Shown here piece after piece: positions 16,632-61,993 of a stretch of 64,000 nucleotides of DNA. This DNA comes from Spisula solida (taxonomy: Eukaryota > Mollusca > Bivalvia > Venerida > Mactridae). Both the position numbers and the translations under genes were made by a program. Location of the stretch: assembly GCA_947247005.1 (NCBI GenBank), contig OX365944.1, positions 25,953,501 through 26,017,500 on the forward strand. Direction: 5' to 3'. The notes under the pieces were generated by a model that was not told where the DNA came from, ran no database searches, and worked only from the letters and a program-made list of their open reading frames with translations. Within the stretch, counting starts at the first letter, position 1. Every line of letters begins with the position of its first letter.

Positions 16632-16708
16632 CCATACACTTTCCTGAAGAGAGACTGAGGTAGTCAATAGGTTTAATTTCCTTGACTTATGGCTTGGTAT
16701 ATTAAATA

Positions 16709-16845: not shown

Positions 16846-18290
16846 TATAATGTACAACAACTTTACATCTTCAGTACATCTGACATATAATCACCGTTTT
16901 CGTGGTTGGTGTGTGCACATGATTTAATTACTTCGCATCAAAACTCGTGTCGTCCATACTTTATTATACGTTAAATACAGGAACATAATCTATGATTTCT
17001 CGAATACATACGACATTGTACATGTCATGTAGGTCATATAAGAGACTAAGTGTAATATTTCATATTCGCAAGAAAATCACGCGGCTCCTAACGATGTGGA
17101 AATGACTGTTGCACAGTAATCAATTCCACCGCTCTTTTGTTATTATTGCATACTAATCGCAATCAAGTAACACCATCATGGTTTTCCTCAATGTTTTTCT
17201 TAATGTATTTATTATTTTGCATAAAATTATCACTAACATACAAAACGCGCTGTACTCAATCATAGAATAACTTTAAAATAATTGAAATAGCTTTGGTACT
17301 GATAGCACTTTGACGTTGATTATGTTGAAATCAGACCCGAAATGCTAGACATTACTGAATTATTTATCGTACAAGTTTACAAATTGTCTTGTTGATTAAG
17401 ATAAGGATATTGCATGTGAAACTGCGGTTTGATTGCACATTTCTTTATTATTTTCTTTTGAAGACATGATATCCCCTCCACTTTCAACGTTCCGTAGATA
17501 ATTTAATGACGCCCGGTATCTTCATCCGAAATAAACACTTGGTGGTGATTGCACTCGGGTGGCTAATCACATATTGTAAGTGTTCGTGATGCGCATTTTT
17601 GATTGTATTTAGGATAACAAATGTTTTATCATGGGCTGTAGAGCTACTGTAATATCTTTATATACAGTATCAAATGAAATTGTATTAGCATTTAATTAAA
17701 TACTGCAATGTTCCCATATTAATCAACATAAAGTAAACTGCTGGTACTGTTTTGAAAACGTTGTTTTACGTCGGATTCTGTTAAAACAAGAGACTCTGAA
17801 ATAGATGAACAGATGCGATAAATAAACATTCACATCGCTAAATTAGTGACTGGTTTGTTTTAATGTGCCTTACATGTTTTGCCCAATGTCTTATTTGTAA
17901 GGTGGTGCATTAAAAGCTTTTCAGTTTTTACATGCTCCTGTAGTTCTACGACACACTAGTATACCGAATAATATTGCTATATTGATACAGATTCTACAGC
18001 ACACCAGTATAGGTTAACCTTCAGTATTCGGCTTAATGTGTATTGCTGGTACGCACGTTTCCAATATATCGTTGATTAGCGCGCATATCCATAAGTTGCA
18101 GTGTTGTTATATTTGAATAGTTGATTTTCTCGTTCAGTTGTGTGTTGGGCAATGTGTCGTGTAATGGTGGCCTGTGTTGTGTTTATGTTTTCTTTGCTCG
18201 GCGCTCCCTTCTATACCGCTTTTTCACTATATTTTAATCAAAGAGATTGATGGATTTGGTTGATTACTTATTCCTGTTTGTTCAACAATG

Positions 18291-20039: not shown

Positions 20040-23000
20040 TAAAAAAGGGTTGAGAAAATCAAATATATTTTGGGAACTGGTGGAGTATTTACAATTTACA
20101 ATAGTTGTGTTGGCACATCATTACGAGCTACTCATACAATTGCCAGGCATATTACAAAAAATAGGACGATACATATAGTTTGGGTACCCGTATTTGCTTT
20201 GAGACGCCAGCACATATGCCTTTGTAAACTGTCCAAAATGGGCCAGCAAAGACGGAACAAAAGTATGCATTGCAAAACGCTCAATGGATGCCAGTAGAAA
20301 TGTACACATTTTTCCATAAAAAAGTTTCTACCATTAAATTTGATGTATAAAATGGATAATGGGTTACTGCCAAGCTTAACAAAAGTAAATTCCTTCAGAA
20401 ATTGAAGAAATACTCCAACAATCGCTGCCAAGCCAAATATTAAAGGATGACACGCTATTGCAGAGCAATTGGCCTCCATCTGCAGCAGCCATTAGCCCGA
20501 ATTTCTGAGAAGCGTGACGGTTCCTGAGTTTTCCGACTATCCTTATTTGTCAAGAATTGTCACTTGTGATCTTCATTTGTTTCAAACGACTCTTAAATTG
20601 CATTGTCGGAAAAAATAAGAAATACGTTAAGATCTCGGTTTGTCTCATGTCCAGTATATGCACAGTGTACCTAGGAATGATAACAAAATCGCATTTTAAT
20701 AAAGGAATAACAAAATGAAACTTCGCATATATCTATCGGAGATAAATACTGCAATGGGAGCAAAGGCTTGTTTCATTAGTATCTATCAAGGATAATTGTT
20801 TATTGGCTTAGTTGCATTCCCTCGTATAACTTGACACAGTACTGTTGAGGTCCCAAGTACGTACCAACATCTTGACACCAGTTAGTGGATGACAAAGCAA
20901 GCTGTTAGGTGGGAGCACTGTGTTATGATACTGAATATGTGTGAGGAACATGAGTCATTGCGAAATATGTGTTCTATTAACTGATATACTGTTATGATTT
21001 GAGTTTCTTCTCGTGCCATGATACACTTACGGACTTTGAAAACGCACCACTTTTTAGGGATTTGTGTTTTTTGTTTGAACTATTTAGCTGACTTTGTATA
21101 TATAGAAAACATCTGACACGTGTTTTACCATGCAATCTATACGTGGTAACCACGTAGCCAAATATCATGTTTTGCTCGTGGATCTCGCGTGGATACAAAA
21201 ATCCAAACTGTGTGAATGTATATTTGTACACGATACATAAACATGCAAAAAACAAAATTTTCAATCATCCAAAAGCATAACTTTGGCATGTCACGTTCAC
21301 CAGAAAATGACGTGTCTAGAGGTGTAGAAATGTAACATACCGGAAGTTACCTCCACACATGTCCAAGGCAGGATAAAAGGCCTAAAACGGATATTTGTAC
21401 GGATGAATTAATGCGCATGGGTATGCAAAATGATTTAATAACAATTTAAATACGTCGTAAGACATTTTCATTTAGTAGAGTTTGCCAGTTTGTGTGCAAT
21501 CTTACGCCAAAGACGTTCTTCAATATTTAGCCATTCCCTTCTTGTGACACTACTTCCTGCCACAACGATGTTAGCTTTAGACATCATGATAATAATCATT
21601 CGCATAAAGTACGGAAAATAATCACTTTTATGGACGAAAAACATGTCAATGTGATGGATACTCCAGTTTTATCCTCAGATTTTGCTCTGATTGAAAAAAG
21701 ATGGCATTCTGTTACAAAAACGTGTCAACGGGTGAGTGCCGATACTCGATCTGACGGCGAGCTTCTCCAAACGTTTGTCCATGAATGGTGGAACATTCCC
21801 TTAGCAGCTAATTTAAAATCTGATGTTGTTTATGAGTAGCCGTTGTTGTGAATGCACCACGAACAAATTGTTATACACAAACTACTTAATTGTGAATTTG
21901 GCATTGGAGACATGAACACATCGATATCACGTGACTTTGCTACTTTGTTCACTTTTATTATGATATTTTGCTAGTGGATTAAATATACAATAAGCATTTT
22001 ATATACCATTTTTTGTTTTAAATTAATATTGTTTACTATATATTTGCGTGGTTTGCATAAGTGGTGCGTTTTCAAAGTCTTTAAGTGTACACAAATGTTT
22101 GCCATTATTACCGTACAGCTTACTTTGCAAGTAAAATATCCGTTTGTGACACATACTGCGACATGAAAGTTTGTGAGTGTGATGTAGTGCGTCTATAAGA
22201 ACAACATTGATATAACTAGCAGTGTCTCTGAAGATCTCCTGCGATATATAACACCACTTTACTTTGGTACTCAAACCTGCATATTAACACAATGTTACTT
22301 AATGGCAGACTATGTCAACTGCCTACAACATCACTTGTTTCCTCTTGTGACATGCATTACAACTCACACATTCTTACACTATCAACACATGCGTTGTTGA
22401 TATATTATGTAATAAATATTTTAAGTGATGAATTTACCACATTAGCTGCATGAACCTTGGCTGACAATATCGCTACACCTTAACCGATGCAATAAAATGA
22501 ACAATTAGTCATTTCGAGAATTCCTTGATGGTTAACCTCGTGCCAGGAGGCATATAATCTATTCGTGTTACCTTTTGTTTACTGCTGGATAAAAATAATG
22601 TTATTGTTAGTTGAATAGTGAGTACCAAACTATTGTTCTACCAAACACGTTTAGATCTATAGTAGAGCATTAACGCTACATTTGAACACCCTTTAGACAT
22701 TGTCTTACATGTTTTGGAACTGCTCCATATAGAATTACAAAGGCTTTTTCTGTAAATGGTGAACAAAATGTCCTAAAATAATCACATGAAATTGAATTAT
22801 TATTATTTGTGTCGTGTGCCGCTTAGAGGCTTATTGACCCTGTACATGTCCTGTTTTTGTCATTCATGTGTGTATTTATTATTGTACCCAATTCACAAGG
22901 AATACATAACTATGGTATATTATGCATTGTTTGGACAAATACATGTGTTTGTTAGATGGCCGGTGTCGGGACACTCGGTGATATTCAGGCCACAAGAACA

Positions 23001-24546
23001 CCAATTACATTTGCATGTCATGATAAATCAGTCGTAATGATCAGACTCATTCACACGGGACACAAATGTATTCAAGTGTATTATGTTGATTGCGGTGATA
23101 ATGCGTCAATATCAAGCAGACTGAATGCCAAACATGGAAAATATTACTGAACTCAATGGTATTATTTGGGAGTTCCCTTTTCCGTTTCGCTAGGTATTCG
23201 ATTAGGCAAGAAAGTGCCACATGAAACTAAATCTAGCTGTTCGTGATTTCGATTACCGCTGTACATTTTTGGGAATACAGTTACATCAAATAACGTTTGA
23301 ATGACGTTTGTGACGCTGTACACAACGAGACGTAGGTGGATAGTGTTTAAAGTTATGTGTTCATTGCAATCATTTTTTTCTAATTCTCTTTGAATCAAAT
23401 AAATTGTAAATGGTATAATGAGCAAACCTGAATTATTTTACATTTTAATTGAATTATACAGCAACACGAACAATAAAATATCATATAAATCAATTATCGT
23501 ACAAAATGACTTGACGTAAGTCATTAATTTAACGTCAATGTATGATTGACTTGGATTTAATAAGGTATTTATTAAACACTATAGGCTCTGATGACGTATC
23601 GTTGTAAATGTTTAGGCTTTCTCGAATTCAAGTATATTTCATAGCAGCATTCAATAAATCCGAGTGTTATTGTTTAATACTAGCCATTACTTTGGTTACA
23701 CTACATTATGTTCAGTAAAAGTGTCAGTTAGCCAATTAGTCAGTTATGGTCCTTGACACGTTCATCGGCAGCAGATATTTTCTACATCATATTAGTCAAC
23801 ATTGAACACTGGGATCAAGTATAGCCCTTTATTCTAGACGTCCCTGTTGGAATAGTACAGCGCTAGATATGACAGACCTGGGAGAAAGAACATTAAGTTG
23901 AACATCGTCAACCATGTTGAGCTATCACCATGAATGCCCTATTTTAAAATAATAAAAAAGTACAAAACAATAATAAAATGCACCATTTAGATTCTTCATA
24001 ACATAATCCAGAACTTTATTCACTATTCAATCCAATACAAGGCCCAAATGCCACGGAAAAAAACTCCAGTTATTGATCAGTGGAGTCTGCTATTTTAAAA
24101 GCTTATTTTGTTGGTTGATTATGGCTTAAATGTATAATTTTAAATATTGTTTCCTCTCAGTGAGATGCCAATTTGATAGAGCAATATATATAAAGTCTGA
24201 TTTATGCCGAAAACAGTTTTTTAAAGTATCCAACGTCTAGACTAAACACTTAAGTATGTTATAACAAGCTCAACTACAAGGTTTGTTATTGTTCATCACT
24301 GTTGGATTTCCATAAGCATTTCATTCAAAGATCACCTACTATATTATTATTTGTCAATAAATACACAGTTTCTGATATTAATCGACGTCACAAACAATTC
24401 TAAATAGCCGCCTCAGCTTAAACTTTTTTACCACAAATGTCACATTTATAGTCCGGACTAACATACAGTACTGTACATGCAATACTATTAGGCAAAATAA
24501 ACGTCCACAACTATCAATACTTTATCATATTAAGTATGCGTACAGA

Positions 24547-24767: not shown

Positions 24768-24815
24768 ATAACATCCCCAGTTGTCTCCCCTACCTGTCGT
24801 GAATATCGAGACGTA

Positions 24816-25615
24816 CACTGAGCGGCTTTGAAAACGCAACACTAATGAAAATCAAGATAACTTTTTCATTGATAAATATTTCTCAACGAAATTGTGTGTG
24901 CGTATTATTGGCTACCAATGGATTGTAACTTGATGTTCTTTCCAACTAAATTCGCTACAATGGTGCACTGAACCATGAAATAGATCAAACGAAACACGTA
25001 AGAGGAACTGATTGTACAAAAATGTACGATGCAATTATTATATTATGTAAGGTCAATTTGAATAGTCAACCAATCGACAAATTCGAAAAACACGAAATAA
25101 GACGATTAACCACTCCGCAACATAGTGGTCGTGAAGTTTCAAAGACCCTTGATAGCAATGTTTCAGATTTACCGAAAAATACTACAAATTTTACAGTCAA
25201 GGGGAAGTAATTCTGGATAGAGATAGAGTGAATATAATTCATTTTTTTCTGAATCTAGATTGAACTTTTTATTTAGCTGTGTTTTATTTTATTTCTTTCT
25301 CCATGATATGCACGGCCACTTGTTACCGAACTTTATACGAAGAATAGGTACACATCGACATAAACAATCTGAAAAACGCAGGACATAGGGCATAAAAATT
25401 ACTTTTGTTTATGACATCATTGTTTTAATGTGGCTGTAAAGGGTCTTATCAGATTGTCATGGAATAAAATTGATTGTTATGCCAAATATCTTAGCTACAA
25501 ATGCTGAAACTTTCAGCAAAATTTAATGCATATTGGCCGAGTTATGGGTAAATACATACATGCATACATATAAGCTAAGTAAGTGTAAGTGTTGCGTTTT
25601 CAAAGCCGCCCAGTG
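24816..25615 (-). mobile_element. 800-bp CACTGAGCGG element with TA target duplication
   Basis: Complete copy. It has terminal inverted repeats of about 27 bp beginning 'cactgagcggctttgaaaac' and ending 'caaagccgcccagtg', flanked by TA at 24,814-24,815 and 25,616-25,617. Unit A preserves the empty site as 'gtgacg-ta-tattcataac' (about 13,409), which shows insertion at TA with duplication of TA, as in the Tc1/mariner (IS630) superfamily. The element is too short for a full transposase of about 340 codons. It carries a 62-codon open frame (25,022-25,210, plus strand of the window) also found open in other copies. I call it a non-autonomous derivative. Orientation is arbitrary: minus means the 'cttatatgtatgcatg' end is on the right. 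Confidence 0.85.
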
Positions 25616-28600
25616 TATATTCATAACTTGAATTTTATCGTTTATGACGGAACAATAATGAAACATTTATTCATAAGTAATGTTTTACTCGAAACAAGAC
25701 ATTATGAAATGATGTCATAAATATAAGTCCAATGATCCCAACCACCTGTGGGAGTTTGTACATATTAGTACGTTAGATCTAGTTATAAAGTAAACACTAA
25801 ATGTAAGCTTGTTTTTATTGACAATGAGCCTTCATATATTTGGGATTGGTCAACCAATGAAGTAAGATACTGGATGAGTATCATTCCGATGAGTAAAAAT
25901 ACAACAGGCAGCGTAACAATTGTCTACACTTTTTGTGATACCTGTAACATGCCCTCCAAGTCAATGTTCATACGCACAACCACGGAATGATTCAGTACTA
26001 CATGTATTTATTACGCGCATGTATAATTATAATGATAAATGATATGTTGTATGTAAGAAATATACATGTAGATATAACTGTTTACAAACACTAAAGCTCT
26101 GGTAGGTCAACAACAATTTTATCTTTATATGTGTTATTAATTACTTACACTGCATTGATGCAGAACAGCAGGTGCTAAGAAATCACGCATATACCAATTT
26201 ATATGCCGAGTAGTATTTATTAGCTCTTGCCTCCTCCAACGTTGCTATCAAAGTAGCTTACAGTAAAATGAAAAAGAGGTTTCACTCCATGGGCACACTA
26301 CAACTAGCTGTCAATCATGATTAGAACTAACTTTAATTAACGTATTTTTAAGTGCAAGTTCTTCTCTATGATTGTTTCTATCAACACAGCTGTTCTGTTG
26401 TATTACTCAAATGACGTAATAGCATGGCAAAATATACGGGAGCGATAACACACTAAAAACAGTATTAGGTTTAACTAGCCTGGTGTTTATTTGAATAGTG
26501 TAATTATGTGCAGTCCACAGTAAGGTTCGAAGGCGGTTCCTCCCCTTCCGGGCAACCAGTACATCGCAATACATCATATAAGTTACATTCTACAACATAT
26601 TGCTTATTATTCGTCGAAACCAATCACATCTCCCTCAATTTCAATGAATGATATGAGAGTATTATTTCCAACGACCACACCAATGATGCATTTCCGCTGC
26701 CTACAAGTCTGTTCTGTGATTATATTGAAATAAGATATATTTGCACACAATGAAACACTGCATGCATTGCACTGTATTGTACCACAATATCGCGTGAATA
26801 GTTGTGTTTCCGAGCAGAAACATCACATGTAATGTGTTCGCACTTGTTCCGTTTTCCGGCTGTTTACATTAATTCGTTTCCCACTGGAACCAAAACATAC
26901 TCAATCAACAGTCTTATAAATTTAACATGAAGTAAGCAGGATGTGTACAATTTCTGTAAAGTAATGTACATTATGTGATGTGTATGTTCCACTTTGGTTC
27001 TATTTACCAGAGTCATCAGATTGCAACTATACAACCATGGTTGTGTTGAACTGGTACATATGTACTGTCATGCCTGATTCCAATGGTCTCAACCAGTATA
27101 ATCAAATGTATGTATTTATTAAATTAGCTATTACACGGGCCTTTTAATAAAGCTCTTTCCCTTGAGCACGCGACCGCTAATTCACAGCACTTGAAATCTG
27201 GTAAAAGTGTATGTTCGCCCATGACAGGTAGGAAGAATCTACTGCAATAACCGTCATTCAATTTTCAAACATCTCTTAACGGTTATATATTAGAGTTTAT
27301 TATTAAGTTTTCTGTTGATTGTGTAGGAGCAAGATGAAATGTGTTGAACAACTGGAAGTGTTGATTCGTCAACAGATCGTATTATGATAGTGACTGTATT
27401 TTGCCGAGAAATAACGTAGTAAACTAGTTAACATGCCGAACAGAGATCGATATTAGCTGTGACAGAGTTATGCATTTGTCGTTTGACTTCCCGTTCACTG
27501 TTTCCCAAGCGTTGAGAAATTAGAGGGACATTGCTGTGCATTTCTAATTCTACCTTGGCTTTTCATGGGCAACAAATAAGCCAGCATTGATTGACAATTA
27601 TATATGATTCTGTTATTCAAATTTCGTGTGCAGTATTGGTAAATCAAGGACAACAACAACTTCCGAAAGTTTAGATCTCAGAAATAATTAATCACGTCTA
27701 AGGCCTTATCGTCAGAGATATTCCATCAAATGGCCCAATAACGTTAACTTTAATAACAACGTATGCCAAATGTACGGTGTTTATAGGTCAGGGTTACGTG
27801 TTACTCAAGTGAACAGCACAATAAGATACGTTGTCGTACGCCAACATTGGTATGTCGAGAACGCTAGAGACGTATACCCTTCTTTCAAATAAGGAATACG
27901 TTACCATTGTATTATACCTAAGATATATATTCGTTGAGGATACGTCCAAAGGAGGTTGGTATACATTGTTGTAAAACGTTGTAGTATACATGTAACAAGG
28001 CTATGGAAAGCGCAAACTTGTCCGTAATATCTGAGTATGACCACTAAGTAAGCATTTAGGTATTCCAATAATGTCCATGATTCAGTCGTTGGTTTTATGT
28101 TTATCGTACTAACTTTGTACTGCGAATCCTCTCAAACCACACACAACATTGGTAACGCATCACTCACAAACATGTGTACAGTCTGTACCATCAATTAATT
28201 GTCATTTGGGTCTATCGCCGAACTATGTGTATGGTTTATTAATTCATCCATGTGGATAATGCCATATCATTCCCTTTTTTTAACGCCTTTCACACAAAGT
28301 TAGGATTACAAGTGACAGCTGCAAAGAGTTCACAAATGTTTCAGAATGGTATTGCTATTTCTTGTGGAAACCTATTAGTGGAAGATCTATATTAGTATAA
28401 TTATAATGTTTGGATGTGAATACACTCATGTTCACGAATAACATATACTTATAACTGATAGCAATTGTATCGTTGGTCATCATGTTCGTTGTACTCGGTT
28501 ATGTTTGGTATTATACACAGCGTCCATTTTTTAGATTGAGTTGACATTGTACTTTTAACTTAACATATCATCCATGTCAATGCAATCATTACTTTTGTCC

Positions 28601-30101: not shown

Positions 30102-30189
30102 CACATAATATTAGATATTTGTATAATACCAAACACATAACTAATACCGTGTTTGTTAAATGCACTTTCTTGTTTGCCTTGTACATGTA

Positions 30190-30991
30190 CACTGAGTGGC
30201 TTTGAAAACGCAACACTTACACTTACATAGCTTATATGTATGCATGTATGTATTTACCCATAACTCGGCGAATATGGATTGAATTTTGCTGACATTTTCA
30301 GCATTTGTAGCTAAGATATATGGCATAACAATCAATTCCATGACAATCTGATAAGACCCTTTACAGCCACAATAAAACAATGATGTCATAAATAAAAGCA
30401 AATTTTATGCCCTTTGTCCTTCTGCGCTGTTCAGATTGTTAATGCCGATGTGTATCTATTCTTCGTATAAAGTTCGGGAACAAGTGCCCGTGCATATCAT
30501 GGAGACAGAAATAAAATAAAACACAGATAAATATAAAGTTAAATTTAGATTCAGAAAAAATGAAATTTATTCACTCTATCTCTAACCAGAATTACTTCCC
30601 CTTGACTGTAAAATTGGTAGTATTTTTCGGTAAATCTGAAACATTGCTATCAAGGGTTTTTGAAACTTCACGACCACTATGTTGCGGAGTGGTAAATCGT
30701 CTGATTTTGTGTTTTTCGAATTAGTCGATTGATTGACTATTCAAATTGACCTTACATAAAATGATGATAGCATCGTACATTTTTGTACATGTACACTCAA
30801 TTCCTCTTACGTGTTTCAATTTATCCTTTATGGTTCAATGCACAATTGTAGCGATTTTAGATGGCAAGAATATCGAGTTACTATCCATTTGGTTGCCAAT
30901 AACACGCACACAAAATTTCGTTGAGAAATATTGATAAATAAAAAAGTAATCTTGATTTTCATTAGTGTTGCGTTTTCAAAGCCGCTCAGTG
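30190..30991 (+). mobile_element. CACTGAGCGG element, complete copy in unit C
   Basis: 802 bp, termini 'cactgagtggctttgaaaac' and 'caaagccgctcagtg', flanked by TA at 30,188-30,189 and 30,992-30,993. The internal 62-codon frame of the family, read on the minus strand here, is broken by a stop at codon 20 (AAA to TAA at the 'GACAAATTCG' motif). Confidence 0.85.
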
Positions 30992-31444
30992 TACATATGT
31001 ATAATATTTATACACCTTATTCTTTACTAATAATGATACATTGTGTAGGTAAAGATGAAATAGAGTTTTATTTGTTTTTATATCTTATTAATTACCTACT
31101 CTATGATGATGCAGTATAGCAGGTGCTAAGTAATTATGTATATATTGGTTCATTGACCTATGTTTTATAAAACTTATTATGAATCAAAGTAGCTTATGAT
31201 ACAAAGAAAAGTTATGTTTCACACCAAGGGTACATTACAACTAATTGTTAATCTAGATTAGAACTGAATTTAATTTACGAATGTTTAAGTGCAATATAAT
31301 GCTACAACCAGACGCAGCTGTTATGTTTTATTACCTCTAATTGGCATACACACATGACGAAAATATGGTAGGGATAACGAAATAAAAGCAGCATTCCGTA
31401 GTGGTGTGTTTATTTGTAAAGTGTAATCATATACCTTACCTTAC

Positions 31445-31830: not shown

Positions 31831-32480
31831 CTATACTAGTATATTTTGCCTCACACTTCATATAGCTTCAGAACGTTATGATAATTCATGGAACTCTATA
31901 GCATAAAATGAAAGTGCAAAGTTTAACGAACCCAGTAAAAATGGTATGATCATAACTTGGGGTTAAATTACACAACATGACTGAGTATTAATAAGTCTTG
32001 TAAAGGCTACAGATAAATGGCATGAACAAAGTATAAATGTCAATTAAAAGTGCAATGGCTTTCTGGAATTTGATCTGACCATTGTGTGCCTAAAATATGT
32101 ACTACTGACAGATGAGTTCTGGGAAGTATCGTTGAAATCCGACACATGGTTACTAAGAATAAGTGTGAAAGAAAATGACCAACAGAGGGACCGACCAACT
32201 AACCTACCAACCAACTTCATACATAATCCTAATATATATCAGTCAAACAGTGTCTAGAACTCAATAAGTACACCTCATTTTCAATCATATTTTATTGCAA
32301 ATTAAAATCCCCTTTATTACTCAGCATAACTTAACAGAAACGGTGTCATAACTAAATGAAGCATGCAAGTGCCGTCAACCGTATGTTTGGTTCTGGTTTT
32401 GCTGAGATTGAAAAAAAACACGGAAATATGCATGCTCGTGACGGCATTTATGAGCTTTAATTAATAGTACATTAATTATA
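31831..32480. other. No gene; degenerate repeat sequence
   Basis: Homology to units A and B fades out near 31,830. The segment 32,100-32,240 ('cgttgaaatccgacacatgg...gaccgaccaactaacc') resembles a decayed copy of the 160-bp repeat seen at 58,020-58,695. Nothing else is supported. Confidence 0.4.
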
Positions 32481-33246
32481 CACTGAGCTGCTTTGAGAAC
32501 GCATTACTTACACTTTCATAGCTTATATGTATGCATGTATGTATTTATCCATAACTCGGCCAATATGCATTTAATTTTGCTGGAATTTTCAGCATTTGTA
32601 GCTAAGATAAATGGCATAACAATCAATTTCATTTCATGACAATCTGATAAGACCCTTTACAGCTACAATAAACAATGATGTCAACAACGAAAGCAAATTT
32701 GATGCACTGTGTCCTTCTGCGTTTTTCAGATAGTTAATGCCGATGTGTACCTATTCCTCGTATAAAGTTCGTGAACAAGTGTCCGTGTCTATCATGGAGA
32801 CAGAAATAAAGTAAACCATAGATAAATATAAAGTTCAATTTAGATTAAAAAAAATATTTTTTTATTTACTTTATCTCTATCCAGAATTACTTCACCGTGA
32901 CTTTAAAATTGGTAGTATTTTTCGGTAAATCTGAAACATTTCTATCAAGCGTTTTAAAAACTTCACGACCACTATGTTGCGGAGTGGTAGATCGTCTTAC
33001 TTTGTGTTTTTCGAATGTCTCGATTGATTGACTGTTCAAATTTACCTTACATAGAATAATAATCGCATCATACAATCAATTCCTTTTTCATTTTTTCGTT
33101 TTATCAATGCACCATTGGAGTGGATTTAGATAGAGAGAACAACGTGCTACAGTCCATAAGTACTATTAAGTAGCCAGTAACAGGCACATACAATTTCGTT
33201 GAGAAATCTTAATAAATTTTCGTTGCGTTTTCAGAGCCGCTTAGTG
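32481..33246 (+). mobile_element. CACTGAGCGG element, diverged copy
   Basis: 766 bp between TA at 32,479-32,480 and 33,247-33,248. Termini 'cactgagctgctttgagaac' and 'cagagccgcttagtg' show several substitutions, so it is older than the copies at 24,816 and 35,658. The 62-codon frame is nevertheless intact on the minus strand (32,887-33,075). Confidence 0.8.
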
Positions 33247-35138: not shown

Positions 35139-36573
35139 CACTGAGCGGCTTTGACAACGCAACACTAATGAAAATCAAGATAACTTTTTTATTAATTAAT
35201 ATTTCTCAACGAAAATTTGCGGGCTAACACATTGGCTACCCATGGATTGTAACTCGACGTTCTTTCCATCTACATTCGGTACAATGGTGCATTGAACCAT
35301 TAAATGGATAACACAAAACACGTAAGATGAATTGATTGTACAAAAATGTACGATGCAATAATTATTTTATGTAAGGTCAATTTGAATAGTCAATCAATCG
35401 ACAAATTCGAAAAACACAAAATCAGACGATTTACCACTCCGCAACATAGTGGTCGTGAAGTTTCAAAAACGCTTGATAGCAATGTTTCAGATTTACCGAA
35501 AAATAATACCGATTTTACAGTCAAGGGGAAGTAATTCTGGATAGACATAAAGTGAATAAAAATCTACCTACCGAAAATGTCTACGGATCAATATTATTAA
35601 CTGACTTTTGAAACCACATTTGGACGGAATACACAACCAATAATAATTAGTATACTACACTGAGCGGCTTTGAAAACGCAACACTAACACATACATAGCT
35701 TATATGTATGCATGCATGTATTTACCCATAACTCGGCCAACATGCATTAAATGTTGCTGAAATTTTCTGCATTTGTAGCTAAGATATATAGCATTACGAT
35801 CCATTTCATTCCATGACGTTCTGATAAGACCATTAACAGCCACAATAAAACAATGATGTCATAAACAAAAGCAAATGTTATGCCCTATGTCCTTCTGCGT
35901 TTTTCAGATTGTTAATGCCGATGTGTACCTATTCTTCGTATAGAGTTCGGGAACAAGTGTCCGTGCATACCATGAAGACTGAAATAAAGAAAAACACAGA
36001 TAAATATAAAGTTCAATTTAGATTAAGAAAAAATGAATTTTATTCAATCTATCTCTATCAAGAACTGACTGTAAAATTGGTACATGTAGTAATTTTCGGT
36101 AAAACTGAAACATTGCTATCAAGCGTTTTTGAAACTTCGCGACTACTATGTTGCGGAGTTGTAAATCGACTGATTTTGTGTTTTTTTAATTTGTATATTG
36201 ATTGACTATTCAAATTGACCTTACATAAAATAATAATTGCATCGTACATTTTTGTACAATCAATTCTCTTACGTGTTTCGTTTTATCCATTTCATGGTTC
36301 AATGCACCATATTGTAGCGAATTTAGATGGACAAAACATCGAGTTACAATCGATTGGTAGCCAATAACACGCACACAAAGTTTCGTTGATAAATATTAAT
36401 AATTAAAAAAGTTATCTTGATTTTCATTAGTGTTGCGTTTTCAAAGCCGCTCAGTGTATCTTAGCTACGAATGTTGAAAATTTCAGCCTATTTCCCGAGC
36501 AATAGGTAAATACCTACATGCATACATATAAGCTATATTAGTGTAAATGTTTCGTTTTCAAAGCCGCTCAGGT
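35139..36573 (-). mobile_element. CACTGAGCGG element interrupted by another copy of the same family
   Basis: The outer element's left part, 35,139 to about 35,563, begins 'cactgagcggctttgacaac' after TA and includes an intact 62-codon frame (35,346-35,534). Its right end resumes at 36,459 ('tcttagctacgaatgttg') and finishes at about 36,573 with a damaged terminus ('gccgctcaggta'). Between them lies a complete second element in the opposite orientation (35,658-36,456). A 90-bp stretch at 35,565-35,655 does not match the family, and roughly 240 bp of the outer element is missing. The insertion was therefore accompanied or followed by a deletion. Confidence 0.75.
35658..36456 (+). mobile_element. 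CACTGAGCGG element, complete inner copy
   Basis: 799 bp with near-perfect termini 'cactgagcggctttgaaaac' and 'caaagccgctcagtg'. TA flanks both ends (35,656-35,657 and 36,457-36,458), and the right flank 'TA-tcttagctac' is internal sequence of the outer element. The 62-codon frame survives on the minus strand only in altered form (36,058-36,249, with a frameshift near its 3' end). Confidence 0.9.
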
Positions 36574-45275: not shown

Positions 45276-48200
45276 CTGAAAATACAAGCGTAGTATTTTA
45301 GCCATTAATATAGCTATAGATACATGATATACGCTCTTAAGAACGCGATCAAAGTTTATGTATTATAAAAAGCCGATGGATTTAAAGGTTGGTCGGACAT
45401 TTCGTTCATATTGCCGTATTTTCTGCAGTCAGACATATGGGTATTATTACTTCTACTGCATTGAATTAGACTCTTCGGTTTTCCTAGAAGAAATGTTAGT
45501 TAATGTGTTGACAAATTTGATTTTCTAAAATCCATTTCCTTCTCAATAATTGTATAGAATCATTTAGAGCATGTGGTGATTTGGCCGGTGTCATGTCTCG
45601 CATTACATCTCCGATACCAACGTAAACACCTTGCTATAACATGAAAACTTAATTTAAAGCTTCACAAACACGCACGTCTATCAATAATTGAATTAGCACG
45701 CTTTGAAGTGTGTATGAGCGTATCTTGCCCGGGTGAAGTGCCCGACTAATACGGACTTGCACGCTTAACTGTTTGCGAGGCATGAAACCTCGTGTTCGTG
45801 TGTATAATACTATGATTATGCATACTTTTATATTTTCAAAAGCAGCTTTCGTTTAATAATGCACGTGTAAACACTTGCCTGGTTTAACACACATTTGACA
45901 GTAGAGATTATATATGAAGATTGGAACATATAAATAATATTATTATACCTCTCTATGTATTTTCTCCATAGGCCTGTCGGGTGATATTGTGTTCGATCAC
46001 ATAGTAATAAGACATGGCATAAACGAGTTATTTATAGAAATATGTACTGTCGGAAAGCTAGAGATTACCATGATGTTATTGATATAATTGTGTATATTGC
46101 ACAGGCTATTTTTAGTAAATCTTGTCAATTTCATCCATCAAATCATAAGAAGCTTATACGGAATGCATATTATCATACCGACAATCTAAGTGCTGCTTAC
46201 ATTTGTTGATATCTTATTTTGTAAAAATCTTGTAATTTTGTTCGGTATGAAAGAATAAATAACACATGGCTGCTCAGATGACAGTTAATATTATTATACC
46301 TCATGTGACCTCTCAATGTATTTCCCCCATAGACCTTCCGTGTGATATTTTGTTCGATCACTATGTGATATTTTGTTCGATCACTACTAGTAAAAACGAG
46401 GCTGGGCTATTTATAGAAATTTGTACTATTTGAGTCCGGAAAACACCCTGCTAGAGAGTATCCGTATGCTATTTATATGTTTGTGTACCCACAAAGCTAT
46501 GTGTTATTTATATATTATTATACCCCTCACTATTTCGTAATGTTAATTTCCAATAGGCAAACATAGAATATTTTTACTGTCACGTCCATAGTACCACGTG
46601 GCTGAACATTTTTTTACTGTCACAGGGTGATAGTAAATGTTTCACAGTATTATCTTGAAAAAAAAAGGTTCATGGTAATAAAATAAATTACACAAAGCTA
46701 TGTGTTATTTATATACTATTATTCTCGCAGCTATGTATTATTTATATAATACCTTATAATGACAATTTACTCAGTTGTAACTTATTCATTGTTGCATATT
46801 AAATACATTACTCACAATTGTGATGTACTTTGAACGTTGTCTTCAGTTGTAGTTCATGGATATGCGCAAGCTTGTGATTAATAGTAGTAAATTAAGTTCA
46901 ACCATGTGGGGGATACTTTTTAGGGTTTTCACGCAGGATATTATAGAGACGTGTGAAGATGCTTGTCGAAAGGTGTATATATCATTTGACAAGATTGCAA
47001 CCATCGTTTGATCTGTGAATCACTACGTACAAAACAGTTGCCGTGTGTCAGACGTACGTGTCTAAATTAGTTTTAATTACTAAACATAACTTGGCTGTCC
47101 TAATACAATTCGCTGATATGGACGTTATAACTTTCCATCTAGTGAGGGTCGATCTTAGGTCAAATGACAACACTGTTAGTAAAATAGCTCCCTTTAATAC
47201 GCGCAACGACGGGTTGGCCCAGTGTCAGAATATTATGGCTCGGTAAACTATATGATACATTTCACTGAAATTCAAATGCAGTATTCTCCGGAGCAAAGGC
47301 TAACAATCACTTTAAGTATGCATTTAAGAATGCTACATTCAGTCATAACATATAATTGGTTTGGGATGTATGAGTAAATCAACATAGATTTCGCAATTTG
47401 GAACGTACGTTTGAGCGCAAATGTTTAACGTAAACGTAGTGAATCATGATCAACGTTGCTTGTGTGTATTTGTCAATATTTGACAGGGGAGTTACAGGAT
47501 GTGACTTACCTGATACAGCAGCCAGGACAGCCGGGGAAGTTACAGGATATGACTTACGTAATACAGCAGCCAGGACAGCCGACGAAGTTACAGTATGTGA
47601 CTTACCTGATACAGCAGCCAGGACAGCCGGGGAAGTTACAGGATGTGACTTATCTGATACAGCAACCAGGACAGCCGGTGAAGTTACAGGATGTGACTTA
47701 TCTGATACAGCAACCAGGACAGCCGGGGAAGTTACAGGATGTGACTTATTTGATACAGCAACCAGGACAGCCGGGGAAGTTACAGTATGTGACTTATTTG
47801 ATACAGCAGCCTGGACAGCCGGGGAAGTTACAGTATGTGACTTATTTGATACATCAGCCTGGACAGCCGGGGAAGTTACAGTATGTGACTTATTTAATAC
47901 AGCAACCAGGACAGCCGGGGAAGTTACAGTATGTGACTTATCTGATACAGCAACCAGGACAGCCGGGGAAGTTACAGTATGTGACTTATCTGATACAGCA
48001 ACCAGGACAGCCGGGGAAGTTACAGTATGTGACTTATCTGATACAGCAACCAGGACAGCCGATGCAGTTACAGGATGTGGCTTATCTGATACAGCAACCA
48101 GGACAGCCGGGGAAGTTACAGTATGTGACTTATCTGATACAGCATCCAGGACAGCCGGGGAAGTTACAGTATGTGACTTATCTGATACAGCAACCAGGAC

Positions 48201-51200
48201 AGCCGATGCAGTTACAGGATGTGGCTTACCTGATACAGCAACCAGGACAGCCGGGTAAGTTACAGTATGTGACTTATTTGATACAGCAGCCTGGACAGCC
48301 GGGGAAGTTACAGTATGTGACTTATTTGATACAGCAGCCTGGACAGCCGGGGAAGTTACAGTATGTGACTTATTTGATACAGCAACCAGGACAGCCGGGG
48401 AAGTTACAGTATGTGACTTATCTGATACAGCAACCAGGACAGCTGGGGAAGTTACAGTATGTGACTTATCTGATACAGCAACCAGGACAGCCGATGCAGT
48501 TACAGGATGTGACTTATCTGATACATCCACCAGGACAGCCGATGCAGTTACAGGATGTGACTTATCTGATACAGCAACCAGGACAGCCGGGGAAGTTACA
48601 GGATGTGACTTATCTGATACAGCAACCAGGACAGCCGGGGAAGTAACAGGTTGTGACTTATCTGGTACAGCAACCAGGACAGCCGGGGAAGTTACAGTAT
48701 GTGACTTATCTGATACATCCACCAGGACAGCCGATGCAGTTACAGGATGTGACTTATCTGATACATCCACCAGGACAGCCGATGCAGTTACATGATGTGA
48801 CTTATCTGATACAGCAACCAGGACAGCCGGGGAAGTTACAGGATGTGACTTATCTGATACAGCAACCAGGACAGCCGATGCAGTTACAGGATGTGACTTA
48901 TATGATACAGCAGCCTGGTCAGCCGCAGAAGTTACAGTATGTGACTGATCTGATACAACCAGGACAGCCGGAGAAATTACAGGATGTGACTTATCTGATA
49001 CAGCAGCCAGGACAGCCGAGGAAGTTACAGGATGTGACTTATCTGATACAGCAACCAGGACAGCCGGGTAAGTAGCAGGATGTGACTTATCTGATACAGC
49101 AACCAGGACAGCCGGGGAAGTTACAGTATGTGACTTATTTGATACAGCAGCCATGCAAGCCGGGGAAGTTACAGGATGTGACTTATTTCATACAGCAGCC
49201 AGGACAGCCGACGAAGTTACAGGATATGACTTACGTGATACAGCAGTCAGGACAGCCGGGGAAGTTACAGCATATGACTTACCTGATACAGCAGCTAGGA
49301 CAGCCGACGAAGTTACAGGATATGACTTACCTGATACAGCAGCTAGGACAGCCGACGAAGTTACAGGATATGACTTACCTGATACAGCGGCTAGGACAGC
49401 CGACGAAGTTACAGTATGTGACTTACCTGATACAGCAGCCAGGAAAGCTGGGGAAGTAACAGGTTATGACTTACCTGATACAGCAGCCAGGAAAGCCGGG
49501 GGAAGTAACAGGGTATGACTTACCTGAAACAGCAGCCAGGACAGCCGATAGTACAAGTAGCTTGACGTTATGTCTCCGCCGTCTCATAAACATTGCTCCT
49601 TGCAGAATGACGCCTATTAAGGATAGTGATGCTGCAGCCACTGTCAACGTTTGCTTGCATAGTAAGGTGTGGTAATAGAAATCTGAAAAAGATTAACCGA
49701 ATGTAAGGACCGTACGGATGTTTACTCATGACTCATTGTGTGGTTCAACGGCAACTATCAAACAACATAAAACTTAAAAAAATACTTTCAATACTTATTT
49801 CTTTATGACGTTAATCACCAACCCAATTGGTGCATGGTATAAGTAACAATAATTAGCTAGATTAAGCGGAACCGCAAATAATTAAGCAGTTAAAGCGTCG
49901 AATATCACATTTAAAAGTTCATGACACCAGGTATTATATCCGTACATTTGTTGTCCTTGAAATGTCCAACGGCCATTACTGACATGATTTAATTCAGGAT
50001 TATTATAAATGGTCCACTATATCTTAATTTGTTACGATACAGTTAAGTGTTGATAAATTGTTAAATGTGAACATAACTTTTTGTGTCTCTTTTTTTTCTT
50101 ATATATACATTTGCATACCAGAACGATGTTAACACAGCTGTGTGTGTAGATGAAGATGTAATAAAACAAGATTTCATACATTTGTAACCATTTGGTATAA
50201 GATTTCCACGCGTAGTTTGTGCATAACTCAGAATCTAACATGAATTTTCATGTTTCTTAAAGTGTTAAAACATTTGGACATAATGCTACAATGCAGCTTT
50301 CGCACAGGACTTGATAAACAATGTTCATTTGTTGCCAAAATGCCTAACGTACATTTCGAAATGTTGTAACTTTGAAAGACATAGTATTTGACCTACTGAA
50401 TTTTCAGGAGAGAAACTATTTCAATTTTCTTGAAATTGATATTTGTGCAAATATTCAACAAATAAATATACATTGGTGCTTATTCTACATTACTTTCGTG
50501 TCGAAACCTACGGTAATCGATGTCAAGTGGCAAATACATCAACAGTTACTTTTTCCTTAACTTCAATTACATCTGACGAAATATCGTAGCTGCAATGCTA
50601 CGACATCTATGACTAAAACGTGCTAGTATTGACCAAAATGACGTTGTCAATTGCTTGTGGTATGGATTTTACAATGTTTCGTATTATTGGTGACGATATA
50701 CTCATAGAATGATTTGGCAAACCAAACAAACATTACACAAACTGTAACAAAACAATAACGGTAATTGCAATGGCTATGATATCATTGAAAACTATTAAAG
50801 TAACATATATAACAATCGGCAACCAATGTACCTATCAACATCTAAGGGTACAATCGGCAGTGAATGTTGCAATCAATTGGTAACTGATGTTGCAATCGGC
50901 AATTAATGTAACGATTGGTAATGGATAGTTTTAATTACTGAAAATTAATGTTACACACGGTAATTAATGTAACAAACGACAACTAAAGTAACAATCGGTA
51001 AAAAAATGTTACATTCATCAATGAATATGACAATTGGCAAAATATGTAACAATGTGGTACCAAATTCGGGCTGTGGTCATGGACATTAAAAACACATACA
51101 TGTTGCATATAAGTGTACGACAGGTAATAAAACCGCTTTAATAACTTGATAATATATTCATGATTCTACGAATAGTAAATCTGTGTCTAAATATAAATAT

Positions 51201-52976
51201 TCAAAATCATTAGCATTTCCACATTGTCACGTGGTCTATACAGCGTCATTGAGTTCATTTAACACTAAGTACTTTTGCATACCTAATTAATTCTGATTAG
51301 TGATCAGGATTGAATGCAATAAAGGTGGGACTGTGTGTTATGTTGCTGTTGATAAGCAATGGTACCAATGCCTCGGTGTCATAAATGCTACCTTGTCTGA
51401 GCATGCATTAGACCCTCCGAAACAGTAATTAACTTGTACGTTTATAAGGAGTTCGTTGTATGATCTTTGGTTTATTTAAATTATGAATTAGACATACTAT
51501 TTGTGTAATTTGAAATAGTTGCATAACGATAGTTATACTAAATAAATATGTATCATACTACAGTAACTGTTACACTTTAAGATGTTTATGAAGTGTACCT
51601 GGCTTAAACAGACAATAATGAATTACTTTGCAATTGAACAAAACACTATCATAAAATTTATTTATTTTGCAAATGTCGGAATTTCATATTTATGCTTGTG
51701 CGAGTACCGTTAGAGACTTATCTAGAGTTGCATTTTCAAGTGGTCATGTTAAATAAAACGTCAACGTGATTTTAAATGTTCCTATTTCAGTGAAATATTT
51801 TATGTACGCATGGATGCTAGGGTGAAGGTTGAAGTCAATGTCATTTCAAGGTTTGCAAAATAACAATGTTTCAAAATAAAGACATTTTAATGAGCGATGA
51901 CGTTTGTCAAAACAGCTGTTTAGACTTTATTTATGGTTGTTTTATTGAAATTAAACGGAATCTGCATGAATCCACTGCGCTTGCGCGGTGAGTGTATGGA
52001 ATATTTTATAAATGGTACGTCAGTACCAAGAATAAGGTGGTTTATGAGTCATACATTTACAGGTGAAAGTCGGGATAAAATTAATTATTCATTTTTTCGT
52101 ATGATTTATTTGTTGTTGCATTTTGATAAATGTGTTTGCTATTTATGATGCGTTGTGTTAACTTTCACGCTTTTCGTGGTGTTAATACACTCATATATCT
52201 TGGTAGTTGTCCTTAACAGTCTTTAAGTATTTAGCTAGTTTTCAAATATTCTTATATTAGCCAAGTCACTGACAAAAGTATTGTATTATTACAATGTATC
52301 TCAAGAGTCGTATCATTAACGACAGAAACGACACTATAGTACAATGTGTGTAATCATAGTTGAAATACTTATTTCTACAGCCTCACACAAAGTGAGCCTT
52401 AGTAATAAAAGCACACCGACACAAGAAATTAAGATTCCATGTTCATTGTTTTGCATGTTATTTAACATGGAGATTCTGATATATGGTCATAAGTACGGTT
52501 TATTATCTTTAAGGGACAACACAAATGCAAATACACAGTTGTCACCGTTGTGTATATACTTTTCTATAAGTATTGGTACTTATTCATGTGCTTTGCCTAT
52601 ATGTGCTTGCAATAATAGCTTCATTCTGCCTTAAATGTTTCTATTTGCGTTTTTTTAAACGAAAGTGTTCAAACGTGGATTGCCTTTTCTGAGTAAAACA
52701 AATGATCTTACCAACTTCAGCAACTGTAGATTGTCTCACTTTGCCGTCGATGAGTTTCTCTCTTTCCCTGTTATATATTTCACTAAATGACTTAATATCA
52801 CACACGCTTACAACGCTCAAAACGTGACATGTTCTCCTGTAAAACAGACTATTCCCATGTTCCAGGTTTCCATCCACTTCTATAAGCCATCCAGGAGCTG
52901 CTATAGACGCCGCCTGTATAAGGAAGGCAATAATCACTAATCCTGCAGTAAGCTTTCTTAACGAAGACTTCCCCAT
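44827..52976 (-). CDS. Claudin/PMP22-like four-transmembrane protein, 3 exons, 290 aa
   Basis: Reconstructed as join of 52,976-52,712, 49,682-49,524 and 45,275-44,827 on the minus strand. Both junctions are phase 1, and the joined frame is open from ATG to TGA. Predicted topology: short cytoplasmic N-terminus; TM1 at about 10-29 ending 'APGW'; an extracellular loop to about 98 with W30, a SLF motif, C50, C59 and C97, which recalls the claudin W-GLW-C-C signature; TM2 about 101-121 followed by RRRR; TM3 about 130-150; a short loop; TM4 about 174-202; then an 88-residue Pro/Ser/Thr-rich cytoplasmic tail. Claudin-superfamily proteins act in junctions or as membrane regulators; no specific role can be given here. 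The start ATG at 52,976 is the first in frame. Intron 2 opens with a 43-copy repeat of its own splice-donor region. Confidence 0.85.
45276..47490 (-). other. 3' part of intron 2, with local direct repeats
   Basis: Non-coding. Two related stretches of about 120 bp, about 45,938-46,060 and 46,290-46,430, share 'attattatacctc...ctatgtattt', 'gtgatattttgttcgatcac' and 'ttatttatagaaat'. Inside the second, a 23-bp unit 'tgtgatattttgttcgatca' is directly doubled (46,341-46,386). 'acaaagctatgtgttattta' recurs at about 46,490 and 46,693. Confidence 0.65.
47491..49547 (-). repeat. 43-copy, 48-bp minisatellite made of a 5' splice site
   Basis: Contiguous tandem units begin at 47,491 and recur every 48 bp, except a 3-bp deletion in unit 31 (48,931) and a 1-bp insertion just before unit 43. 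On the gene strand a unit reads from 'GCTGTCCTGGCTGCTGTATC' through AG|GTAAGTCA to 'CCTGTAACTTCCCCG'. That is 24 bp of exon 2 end plus 24 bp of intron start. The authentic donor is unit 43 (intron starts 49,523). GT at the exon/intron position is kept in units 1-3 (47,491-47,634), 16 (48,211) and 37-43 (49,216 onward). The other 32 units have lost it, nearly all with AT (the GGTAAG to GATAAG change). Because 48 is a multiple of 3, several frames are open for long stretches on both strands; these are not independent genes. Confidence 0.95.
49515..49532 (-). promoter_or_regulatory. Authentic exon 2 5' splice site
   Basis: GTTTCAG|GTAAGTCAT with the exon/intron boundary at 49,524/49,523. This is the only member of the repeat family joined to unique exon sequence upstream. 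The next six units downstream offer equally good GTAAGT sites within 310 bp. Confidence 0.8.
49524..49682 (-). CDS. Exon 2 of the four-transmembrane gene
   Basis: 159 bases, phase 1 at both ends. The acceptor is 'taatctttttcag|ATTTC' and the donor is 'GTTTCAG|GTAAGTC'. It encodes the end of the first extracellular loop (C97), TM2, the RRRR cytoplasmic turn and the first half of TM3. The last 24 bases (49,524-49,547, encoding most of 'SAVLAAVS') form the exonic half of the 48-bp repeat unit that is then reiterated through intron 2. Confidence 0.85.
50811..51052. repeat. Degenerate minisatellite in intron 1
   Basis: About ten imperfect units of 20-25 bp around 'caatcggcaattaatgtaa', including 'caatcggcaaccaatgta', 'caatcggcagtgaatgttg' and 'cacggtaattaatgtaa'. 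It lies inside intron 1 (49,683-52,711). The remainder of that intron shows no supported feature. Confidence 0.75.
52712..52976 (-). CDS. Exon 1 of the four-transmembrane gene (coding part)
   Basis: 265 coding bases: 88 codons plus one base. Starts 'MGKSSLRKLT' and ends '...STVAEV' plus G. The donor is GTTG|GTAAGATC, a good match to consensus. It encodes TM1 and most of the first extracellular loop. The frame is open a further seven codons upstream but without an ATG. The 5' UTR and promoter are not resolved. Confidence 0.85.
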
Positions 52977-58019: not shown

Positions 58020-58695
58020 TATCACTGAATGTGATGAATATCCCCAGAATCTGCTTGACACAGTCAGATATGCACAACTAGACTTGGTACTGATCGGTTA
58101 TGCAAAGTTTCATTGAAATCCGACCTTTGTTTGCTGAGATATAGCACAGACATAATTGTTAGTTTAAATCAACAAAGGACTACAACTCCATTCAAATTTA
58201 TACGACCAACGTGTCCTGACGCCTATGCACAACAAGACTTGTTACTGATCATTCATGCAAAATTTCATTGAAATTCGACCATTGGTTACAGAGAAATAGC
58301 GCTGACAAAATTTATAAGTGTAAAAAAACAGGGGTATAACTACCTTAAAATTGATCCACCTATGTGTACCAACAATATGCACAACTAGGCTTGGTACTGA
58401 TCATTCATACAAAGTACCCTAAATATCCGACCAATGGTTACAGCGAAATAGCATGGACAAAATTTATAAGTGTAAAAAAACAAAGGGCCATAACTACCTT
58501 AAAATTGATCCGATCAACGTGTGCAGACGATATGCACAACTAGACTTGGTAATGCTCATTCATACGAAGTTTTGTTAAAATCAAAGCAATGGTTACAGAG
58601 AAATAGCGCGGATAAAGTTATACGGACCAACCAACCAACCAACCTCAAGCATGAATCCAATATAGCCCCCAGATACTATGTATCTGGGGGTATAA
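58020..58695. repeat. 160-bp tandem repeat array ending in a perfect hairpin
   Basis: Four units share 'atgcacaactagacttggta', 'aaatccgaccattggttaca', 'gagaaatagcg' and 'aaaattgatcc'; unit starts are near 58,071, 58,225, 58,377 and 58,532. The array ends in an 'accaaccaaccaacc' run, then the perfect hairpin 'cccccagatac-tat-gtatctggggg' (58,666-58,690), then 'tataat'. This arrangement is a known repeat type of bivalve genomes (from general knowledge). It is non-coding. Confidence 0.8.
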
Positions 58696-58699
58696 TTAA

Positions 58700-60789
58700 A
58701 ATGTACAGAATACAGAAAAGATCATATGATTAGAACTTACAAAAATACACGTGCATTACTTTTTATAAATATACGTCCATGTACATTAGTTGTAAACATT
58801 ATTCGTGACTATTTTAAAAAATGCAATTAGAGACTCGTACAGTTCTTCTGCTGTGCTTTCATTAAAATGTTCGCAAGCAACCAATAAAATCATTATACAA
58901 TCAGTCACGTCAGTTGCAATTAAAACAAATAACAGTTTGTAAAGATACAGCGACACCACCTTAACAATACTGTGGAAAATAAACCTAGTGGTCCTATGTC
59001 AAATGAAAATAACCACGTGGTAAAGGATGTGTTTGTTTTGAGGTTATTTGTACACACATACCTTATGTAACATATTTTGTTACGCAAAGCAGGGAAATAA
59101 AATAATGACAGTAATTTTGCTGAGGCGTAGTGTGACGTGTTTGCATTTATAAACAATATTCATTTTGCGTAACGTTGAACATTACGTAATATTCTAGTTA
59201 AAAAAATTGTTACCATGCATGGGAATCAATGTCAAATGCGTTTCTACAACCATTGTTATCAGGCATAATTTTGTTTAGGCCAAGTAAAGATATATGAGTA
59301 CAGTATGCGGTTCATGTAAGAAGACGAACAGTATAAGGATCGGAAGATTGTGAAATAGGTTTTTATCTACTTTAGTTTTAGTTCAGACCATTCTTATCAA
59401 GTCAGATTTTGCATTTATTAATGTTATCCGTTTAAAATGCACACGGTGTAGGTTTATTGCTTTGAATCAAATTAAACTTATGTTGAGAAACTATCTTTAA
59501 CACAGACGAAATGTGTTATTATGAAATAATTAAAACCTGATTGGTTTAGTCTGACAAATCTAGGACAAGCCATTTAATACGAGAAGGCATTCGGGAGGTA
59601 CTGTGCGTACGAAATTTAAATGTCTCATAAGCCAATTTGGCTAGCTATTTCGATAATAAACAAAACAATTATCTTAAACTTTTTATAATATGTTTGACTT
59701 AGCCTAAGTATCACCAGATAAATGCTGGCTTAACATGGTGAATTACAGCTGTCGGTTTCATGAAGTTGGCTGCTTCGTGCAAAGAAGTAACTGACTGTGA
59801 ACTGTAATCAATCTAGGCCACGTAGTATTGTGTTATGTATTTTTACAACAAGATTAACTTACGCAGCGTAGTTTACCTGACGTTTTTCTGTCTTGCGTTT
59901 AATGGATCTTCTTTTTTCACCTTTTTGTAATATTAAAAACCGTTAATAATAAAAACGCGCACTATTATATTTGTTATATGTTTTTCTCGTTCGTCAAAAA
60001 TTACGTAGTTGATGTCGTATAGTAATTCTGACGTGGTAATACTTCACACAATACGGAACACGTTGTCAAGTCCTCATATGTCATATTTTGGAACCCATAT
60101 TTATGCGTTCACCGTCACCGTCATGATCATAATATTGAAAGAAAGATATTTTTTTAAATAAATGAAATTTTATTCAAGAAAAAGGCAAATATGCCTATCA
60201 TTCTACATGTATAAACAATTTCACATATGTTACAATGGTTAGTGGTGACATAATTAGCATAGTCAGTTATAATCGTATCAAATTCATTCATTTAATAATA
60301 AACAATGTAATCAATTTTAAAGTGTTAACTTAAGCATACAATATATATCGGTTTGAATGTATGATATTATATATCCGTAATTACAGGTTGGTGAATTAGG
60401 GGCGTGTTGGATTTTACCAGTTCAAATATTATGCAAATACTATAACTAAGTGCACCATGTCACCTAATAAACCCTGTAACACAGAACTGATTTTGCAAAC
60501 TCGAATATTGTTTTCTATTGGTGGCTGTCCCCAGAGTACACAGCTGTGCCTAAATCCTGTCATAATATACGTACACATGAGTATGTAAATTAGTGAGCAC
60601 AGTACATAGGAATATGCTATAAAACGACTGACGCTTCCTAAATATTAAGACACAAGGAACAGCCAAGCACATCTGAGTTGATCGTCCTCCATCTGTATGC
60701 TACAAATCATATCTTAAAACAAGTATTCTACATAATTAACCTGGTATTTATATAAGGTCAAACATAATGGTGCAGGAAACTTTACATGA
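58700..60789. other. No gene or repeat recognised
   Basis: AT-rich unique DNA; the short frames are unrecognised and not supported. Confidence 0.5.
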
Positions 60790-60791
60790 TA

Positions 60792-61570
60792 CACTGAGTG
60801 GCTTTGAAAACGCAACACTAATGAAAATCAAAATAACTTTTTTATTTATTAATGTTTCTCAATGAAACTGTGTGTGCGTGTTAGTGGTTTCCCATGGATC
60901 GTAAATCAATGTTCTTTACATCTTAATTCACTTAAATGGTGCATTGAACCATGAAACGTAAAACAAAGAAAAATGTACGAGGAATTGATTGGTTGATGCT
61001 AATTATTTTATGTACGGTCAGTTTGAATAGTCAATCCATCGACAACATCAAAAAAACACAAACTAAGACGGTTTACTACTCCGCAAAATAGTGGTCTTTA
61101 AGTTTTAAAAACGCTTAATAGCAATTTTTCAGGTTTACCGAAAATTACGACTATTTTTACAGTCAATGGGAAGTAATTCTGGATACAGATTGAGTGAATG
61201 AAATTCAACTTTTCTAAATATAAATTGAGCTTTGTTTTGCTTTATTTCTGTCTTCATGCTAAGCACGGACACTTGTTCACGAACTTTTTCCGAAAAATAA
61301 GAACACATCAACATTAACAATCTGAAAAACGCAGAAGGCCGCACGGCATCAAATATGCTTTTGTTTGTGTCATCATTGTTTTAGTGTGGTTGTAAAGGGT
61401 CTTATCAGATCTTAATGAAATGACTTTGATTGTCATGCCACATATCTTAGCTACAAATGTTGAAATTTCAGCAAAATCAAACGCATATTGACTGAGCTAA
61501 GGGGAAATACATACATGCATACATATAAGCTATTTAAGTATAAATGTTACGTTTTCAAAGCCGCTCAGTG
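60792..61570 (-). mobile_element. CACTGAGCGG element, complete copy
   Basis: 779 bp with termini 'cactgagtggctttgaaaac' and 'caaagccgctcagtg', flanked by TA at 60,790-60,791 and 61,571-61,572. The 62-codon frame of the family is destroyed here by indels. A short frame on the other strand (61,135-61,344) shares 'VREQVSV..MKTEI' with the copies at 8,017 and 35,658. Confidence 0.85.
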
Positions 61571-61993
61571 TATTTCAGAAACCTTGTTTTAAAAGTACGT
61601 CCGAAAATGACATGATGAAATTATTGACAATTATGCATCTTATGCATACAGAAGGTCGTTCTTAAGAACACCGACCGCTTTACTTAGTCGGAGAATGTTT
61701 TTATTTTAGTCGGATTTAAATCAATAAGGAATTATCAATCTCACCAACACCTTTTGTTCTTGATCTTAAGATATCTTTCAAAAAGCCTACGTCATAACAG
61801 TCTTGTAACAGCCGTGTATCTGTATACAATCATACACTTGTCCAGGCATTTGTCGTCCGCTCATGCGACAGCTAACAACCTCGCGAAACAAAATCGCCAC
61901 AAGGTGAACGCCACGTCGCAAACCAATTCTTCAGCATGTCGAATTTTTTCACCTTTTACTTGCGATTATCGACGCAGCAATATTGCATATAAC

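Follow-up and report, generated by a model that had tools for sequence, protein, structure and literature searches.

A 43-copy minisatellite built from an exon/intron border in a predicted clam gene, with most of its copied splice donors lost

The border between exon 2 and intron 2 of a predicted gene is repeated in tandem 43 times within the 64-kb window (the whole stretch of DNA analyzed), and most of the copies have lost the GT of the splice donor. We read this array as a neutral minisatellite that arose by tandem duplication of this border; splicing would normally use unit 1, with units 2–6 perhaps giving rise to some unproductive transcripts (probability about 0.72). Coordinates are collected in Table 1, and a slash marks splice borders throughout.

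Table 1. Positions of the array, its donor classes and the predicted gene within the window
Feature	Position	Strand	Remarks
Tandem array, 43 units x 48 bp	47485..49546	(-)	Repeat finding and unit split from the exon side
Predicted exon 1, coding part	52712..52976	(-)	ATG at 52,976; donor TTG/GTAAGA; phase 1
Predicted exon 2, 159 nt	49524..49682	(-)	Exon part of unit 1 forms its last 23 nt; frame supported by relatives
Predicted true donor, CAG/GTAAGT in unit 1	49518..49526	(-)	+1 at 49,523
Predicted intron 2, 4,248 nt	45276..49523	(-)	Array makes up 2,039 nt of the intron
Predicted exon 3, coding part including stop codon	44827..45275	(-)	Acceptor TTTTCAG, G at 45,276; protein ends ...NPVFSEKL
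Units 2-6, five extra copies with identical CAG/GTAAGT 9-mer	49258..49497	(-)	Unit alignment
Units 8-40, A at intron +1 in 32/33	47629..49209	(-)	Exception is unit 28
Units 41-43, far end, GT in 3/3	47485..47628	(-)	Unit 42 reads TACGTAAGT

Tandem Repeats Finder placed the array at 47,486–49,547 with a period of 48, 43.0 copies, 91% matches and a score of 3044. Splitting it into units from the exon side, with unit 1 at 49,546 and the array end at 47,485, likewise gave 43, in agreement with the preliminary description of 43 tandem copies of 48 bp. The units lie head-to-tail, are read on the minus strand, which is that of the gene, and fall within the minisatellite range of about 15–100 bp. Forty-one are 48 bp long; unit 1 ends in an additional C and has 49 bp, and unit 13 has 45 bp (three bases missing). 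Each unit combines 23 bp of exon end with 25 bp of intron start. The match to the border described earlier thus holds, with its proportions shifted from the 24 + 24 bp first given. Leaving out the extra C of unit 1, 35 of the 43 unit sequences are distinct, and the sole run of identical units is 32–34. Adjacent units differ at 4.19 sites compared with an average of 5.66, and units 23–27 each differ from their counterparts in units 33–37 at one site or none, a pattern of local and block duplication. Searching the rest of the 64-kb window with the 48-bp unit returned matches of 10 bp at most.

The window also contains other repeated sequence. Two 2,715-bp stretches (4864–7578 and 14600–17314) are 99.9% identical and are accompanied by further pieces matching at 89–94%, such as 10021–13171 with 21363–24545; together these reflect either recent segmental duplication or an assembly in which one haplotype appears twice. 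Dispersed repeats of ~600–800 bp, 80–90% alike and in both orientations (24813–25620, 30185–30994, 32477–33074, 35652–36458 and 60788–61577), are probably a mobile element. Short arrays with 151–156-bp units occur at 1033–1455, 6554–6893, 16290–16629 and 58067–58607.

Joining the three predicted exons, with phase-1 borders, yields an open frame of 290 amino acids. A protein search recovered six relatives of the predicted product. The nearest is from Mactra antiquata, a hypothetical protein with 58% full-length identity, followed by one of Ruditapes philippinarum (39% identity); the remaining four come from short contigs. These relatives point to a bivalve as the source of the window. A second search, with alignment, returned five of the same six and no new relative among the best 7,997 candidates scored. 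Residues at the exon 2/exon 3 junction (LSAVLAAVS/AGIV) align ungapped with all six relatives. L133, A135, A139 and the AGI at 142–144 are invariant across the seven aligned proteins, and all seven have the C-terminal VFSEKL in common. None of the six carries a 16-residue insertion at the junction. This supports the donor but carries no information on whether the extra copies are used, as the relatives may lack the array. The product looks like a four-helix protein with a claudin-like four-transmembrane layout; the Pfam claudin models scored below cut-off (Claudin_3, 16.2 bits against 28.7; Claudin_2, 13.1 against 29.1). No paralogue with a credible score was found within the 64-kb window. Comparison with the related proteins gives good support to the predicted gene and to a donor at 49,523. 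Together with the open frame, it bears out the earlier proposal that the real donor lies in the unit adjoining unique exon sequence, as well as the positions proposed for the donor (49,524/49,523) and acceptor (45,276).

The state of the copied donors is less uniform than first described. GT at +1/+2 is present in 11 of the 43 units (1–7, 28 and 41–43), that is, in 10 of the 42 extra copies. The complete CAG/GTAAGT is kept in eight units, seven of them extra copies (2–6, 41 and 43), and these eight are the only occurrences of the 9-mer in the window. The remaining 32 units, all extra copies, have AT at the donor position. A count of 42 further splice donors, as proposed in the preliminary description, is therefore overstated about four-fold if GT is required and six-fold if the full native donor is required. 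The AT units form one block, units 8–40, with a single break at unit 28; this gives five runs along the array, and none of 100,000 shuffles produced as few. Amplification of a single inactivated unit would be expected to confine the dead copies to one block in this way. The consensus of units 1–7 and 41–43 differs from that of units 8–40 at 3 of 48 sites, +1 among them, again as for one amplified ancestor. Unit 28 (48,205–48,252, reading CAGGTAAGC) is the sole GT unit inside the AT block, and has a +6 C and a GCATC end in common with the AT-bearing unit 31; it would then be a back-mutation (reversion) or the product of exchange with another unit. As a counterpoint, the full CAG/GTAAGT in five exon-proximal and two far-end copies means that the array is not inert on paper. 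The donors of units 2–6 are identical to the true donor and lie at most 241 nt from it.

The consequences of using an extra donor were computed from the reading frame. Each of the 10 extra GT donors would add between 49 and 2,014 nt, always 1 mod 3, because unit 1 is 49 bp long. Splicing from unit 2 is predicted to give a protein of 181 instead of 290 amino acids, with the stop in exon 3. The other nine donors all lead to a predicted 158 amino acids; their stop precedes the junction by 44 nt for unit 3 and by up to 1,961 nt for unit 43. As background, like the donor/U1 consensus, we use the rule that an mRNA is subject to decay when its stop precedes a junction by more than about 50 nt. On that basis, splicing from unit 4 or any later donor would expose the transcript to decay. 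With every extra donor shifting the frame, the array could act as a sink only and would supply no in-frame protein variants. RNA folding of units 1–5 together with the 14 nt that precede the array gave z = -2.04, with 8 of 200 shuffles folding as well, and made no strong case for structure.

To assess selection on the donor positions, changes were assigned by parsimony to a maximum-likelihood unit tree with unit 1 as its root. The nine donor positions took 12 of 64 inferred changes against 12.0 expected, with two at +1 and five at -1. Their mean diversity was 0.120 against 0.113 for the whole unit, placing them 19th among 48 circular windows. The donor positions thus show neither greater conservation nor greater decay than other positions of the unit, in a test that is weak because the tree rests on 48 sites and units may exchange sequence. 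The raw count of GT losses ranked 4th of 47 dinucleotides, a position that one amplified change yields and that purging of decoys would yield as well.

From these observations we infer the following order of events. A 48-bp segment across the exon 2/intron 2 border would have been duplicated in tandem and would then have grown inside intron 2 via unequal exchange or slippage. One G-to-A change at +1, followed by amplification of the unit carrying it, would have left the older type at both ends. The bulk of the array would accordingly be descendants of a +1-dead unit, removed as inert intron and evolving in a near-neutral way. Splicing would normally proceed from unit 1, since unit 1 alone keeps the frame. 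Some leakage into unproductive transcripts may occur, probably confined to a few exon-proximal copies, units 2–6 at most. If units 2–6 are used, they would offer a naturally occurring set of identical 5' splice sites, spaced almost regularly at 48 nt, from which a position-only ranking of donors could be read. If they are unused, an exon border would have been multiplied 43-fold in place and yet be harmless, with GT gone from most copies.

A functional array of decoy donors, as put forward in the preliminary description, would have the extra copies bind U1 snRNP and compete with the true donor, lowering or tuning the amount of productive mRNA with copy number as the dial. We consider this unlikely. 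Seven of the 42 extra copies do carry the native 9-mer, five of them close to the exon, and the truncated products expected upon their use mean that competition would have an effect. However, the loss of GT from 32 copies would leave a dial of 10 steps at most rather than 42, and the donor positions show no conservation (12 changes against 12.0; diversity rank 19 of 48). Another proposal, that selection acted against decoys, would explain the dead block as a trace of purging, with expansion possible only for units without GT. It accords with the identity of the expanded block, with the frame-breaking nature of all 10 extra GT donors and with the rank of GT loss. Yet the +1 state takes only two inferred changes, pointing to one or two events; there is no excess of change over the donor sites, and one locus cannot separate such purging from chance. 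We hold this explanation to be improbable. Units 1–6, all with CAG/GTAAGT, might alternatively form a graded splicing sink or a short-step ladder for recursive splicing, the number of live units setting gene output. On a ladder, a step to a later AG/GT unit would be reversible by re-splicing from the regenerated donor, and any final mis-step would lead to a truncated protein. This possibility appears distinctly improbable. An assembly artefact is very improbable: tandem arrays are often miscounted in assemblies, and the copy number may still be off, but the 35 distinct units, the ordering of variants along the array and the restriction of identical units to 32–34 all argue against it.

Two forms of translation of the array as a coding repeat were also weighed: continuation of exon 2 into AVLVAVSDKSHPVTSP repeats, in a 602-residue open frame, and a plus-strand frame of GKLQDVTYLIQQPGQP repeats. 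Both strands do contain long open frames. The plus-strand frame matches Pfam Integrase_p58_C with 111.4 bits summed over the repeats (2e-32), and a consensus peptide of two units passes the cut-off of 27 with 29.3 bits (8.9e-7). Integrase_p58_C, an integrase C-terminal domain, belongs to a Ty3/gypsy-type family. Codon-position diversity speaks against translation, as third positions are not the most variable: their mean is 0.079 both in the exon-type frame and in one plus frame, and the KLQ plus frame has 0.110, whereas the remaining class of sites has 0.149 (values for plus frames derive from minus-strand columns mapped onto them). Read-through from exon 2 would stop in unit 2 as a result of the extra base in unit 1, and three stops interrupt the KLQ plus frame within the array. 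Single KLQ copies score 12.9–16.4 bits with Integrase_p58_C, two other two-unit peptides reach only 18.7–19.2 bits, and the unit-1 peptide gives no match. The plus-strand frame had no homologue at E <= 1 among the best 7,996 candidates scored. The coding readings on both strands were rejected on codon-position diversity, stops, Pfam and protein search, and we give them hardly any credence. Origin of the unit from a Ty3/gypsy-type integrase was likewise set aside: one copy scores no more than 16.4 bits, an edge-type copy has 12.9 and the unit-1 peptide is without a match, and the exon end in question aligns ungapped in six related proteins. Against this dismissal stands the two-unit consensus peptide, which does pass, while two-unit peptides of two other frames scored only 17.4 and 20.7 bits with other families, under the cut-offs of those families. 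In our judgement, which falls short of proof, the Integrase_p58_C match is probably due to chance and mostly the sum of weak copies.

The neutral minisatellite that we favor has a human counterpart in the 6-16 (IFI6) gene, whose minisatellite is reported to have a 12-bp unit and to be polymorphic. The title of a study on this gene (G1P3/IFI6) describes the minisatellite as providing multiple splice donor sites for an interferon-induced transcript (Turri, Cuin and Porter 1995, Nucleic Acids Res 23:1854). The preliminary description knew of no standard category for an array of this type; going by that title, one had already appeared in print. A minisatellite with donor-like units is common to both genes, the extra clam donors being putative, and the clam repeat extends across the exon/intron border in that the exon 2 donor lies within unit 1. 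The two differ in that several donors are reportedly used in the human gene, whereas the clam copies are mostly dead and the extra donors would break the frame.

Intron gain through tandem duplication of AGGT segments offers a second comparison (Rogers 1989, as recounted in PMC4974935). In the fission yeast genes SPOG_01682 and SOCG_00815, an intron spans four or two tandem 24-bp AGGT copies (PMC4974935). Tandem copies of a short AG/GT segment are present in these cases and in the clam. Both yeast splice sites derive from the copies in that account; in contrast, 2.2 kb separate the array from the clam acceptor at 45,276. A third parallel is with the ratchet points of recursive splicing, described in PMC8605326 as conserved sites in long introns. 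Juxtaposed AG/GT inside the intron, the sequence form of a recursive splice site, is found in 9 of the 43 clam units and in 8 of the 42 extra copies (2–6, 28, 41 and 43). Unlike the ratchet points of that account, the clam sites are putative and lie in a 4.2-kb intron. The pyrimidine content before the AG is 0.58 in the units, a value equalled or bettered by 24% of 667 other minus-strand CAGs. It falls between that of other CAGs in the window (0.50) and those of the real acceptors of exon 2 (0.70) and exon 3 (0.60), and so neither supports nor excludes use as an acceptor. Literature searches on VNTRs with a splice donor and on proximal/distal donors returned nothing, and no description of this array stood among the matches listed for literature naming bivalves. 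Human DNA already provides an example of the phenomenon; the novelty lies in this particular case, in its size and in its block of dead copies.
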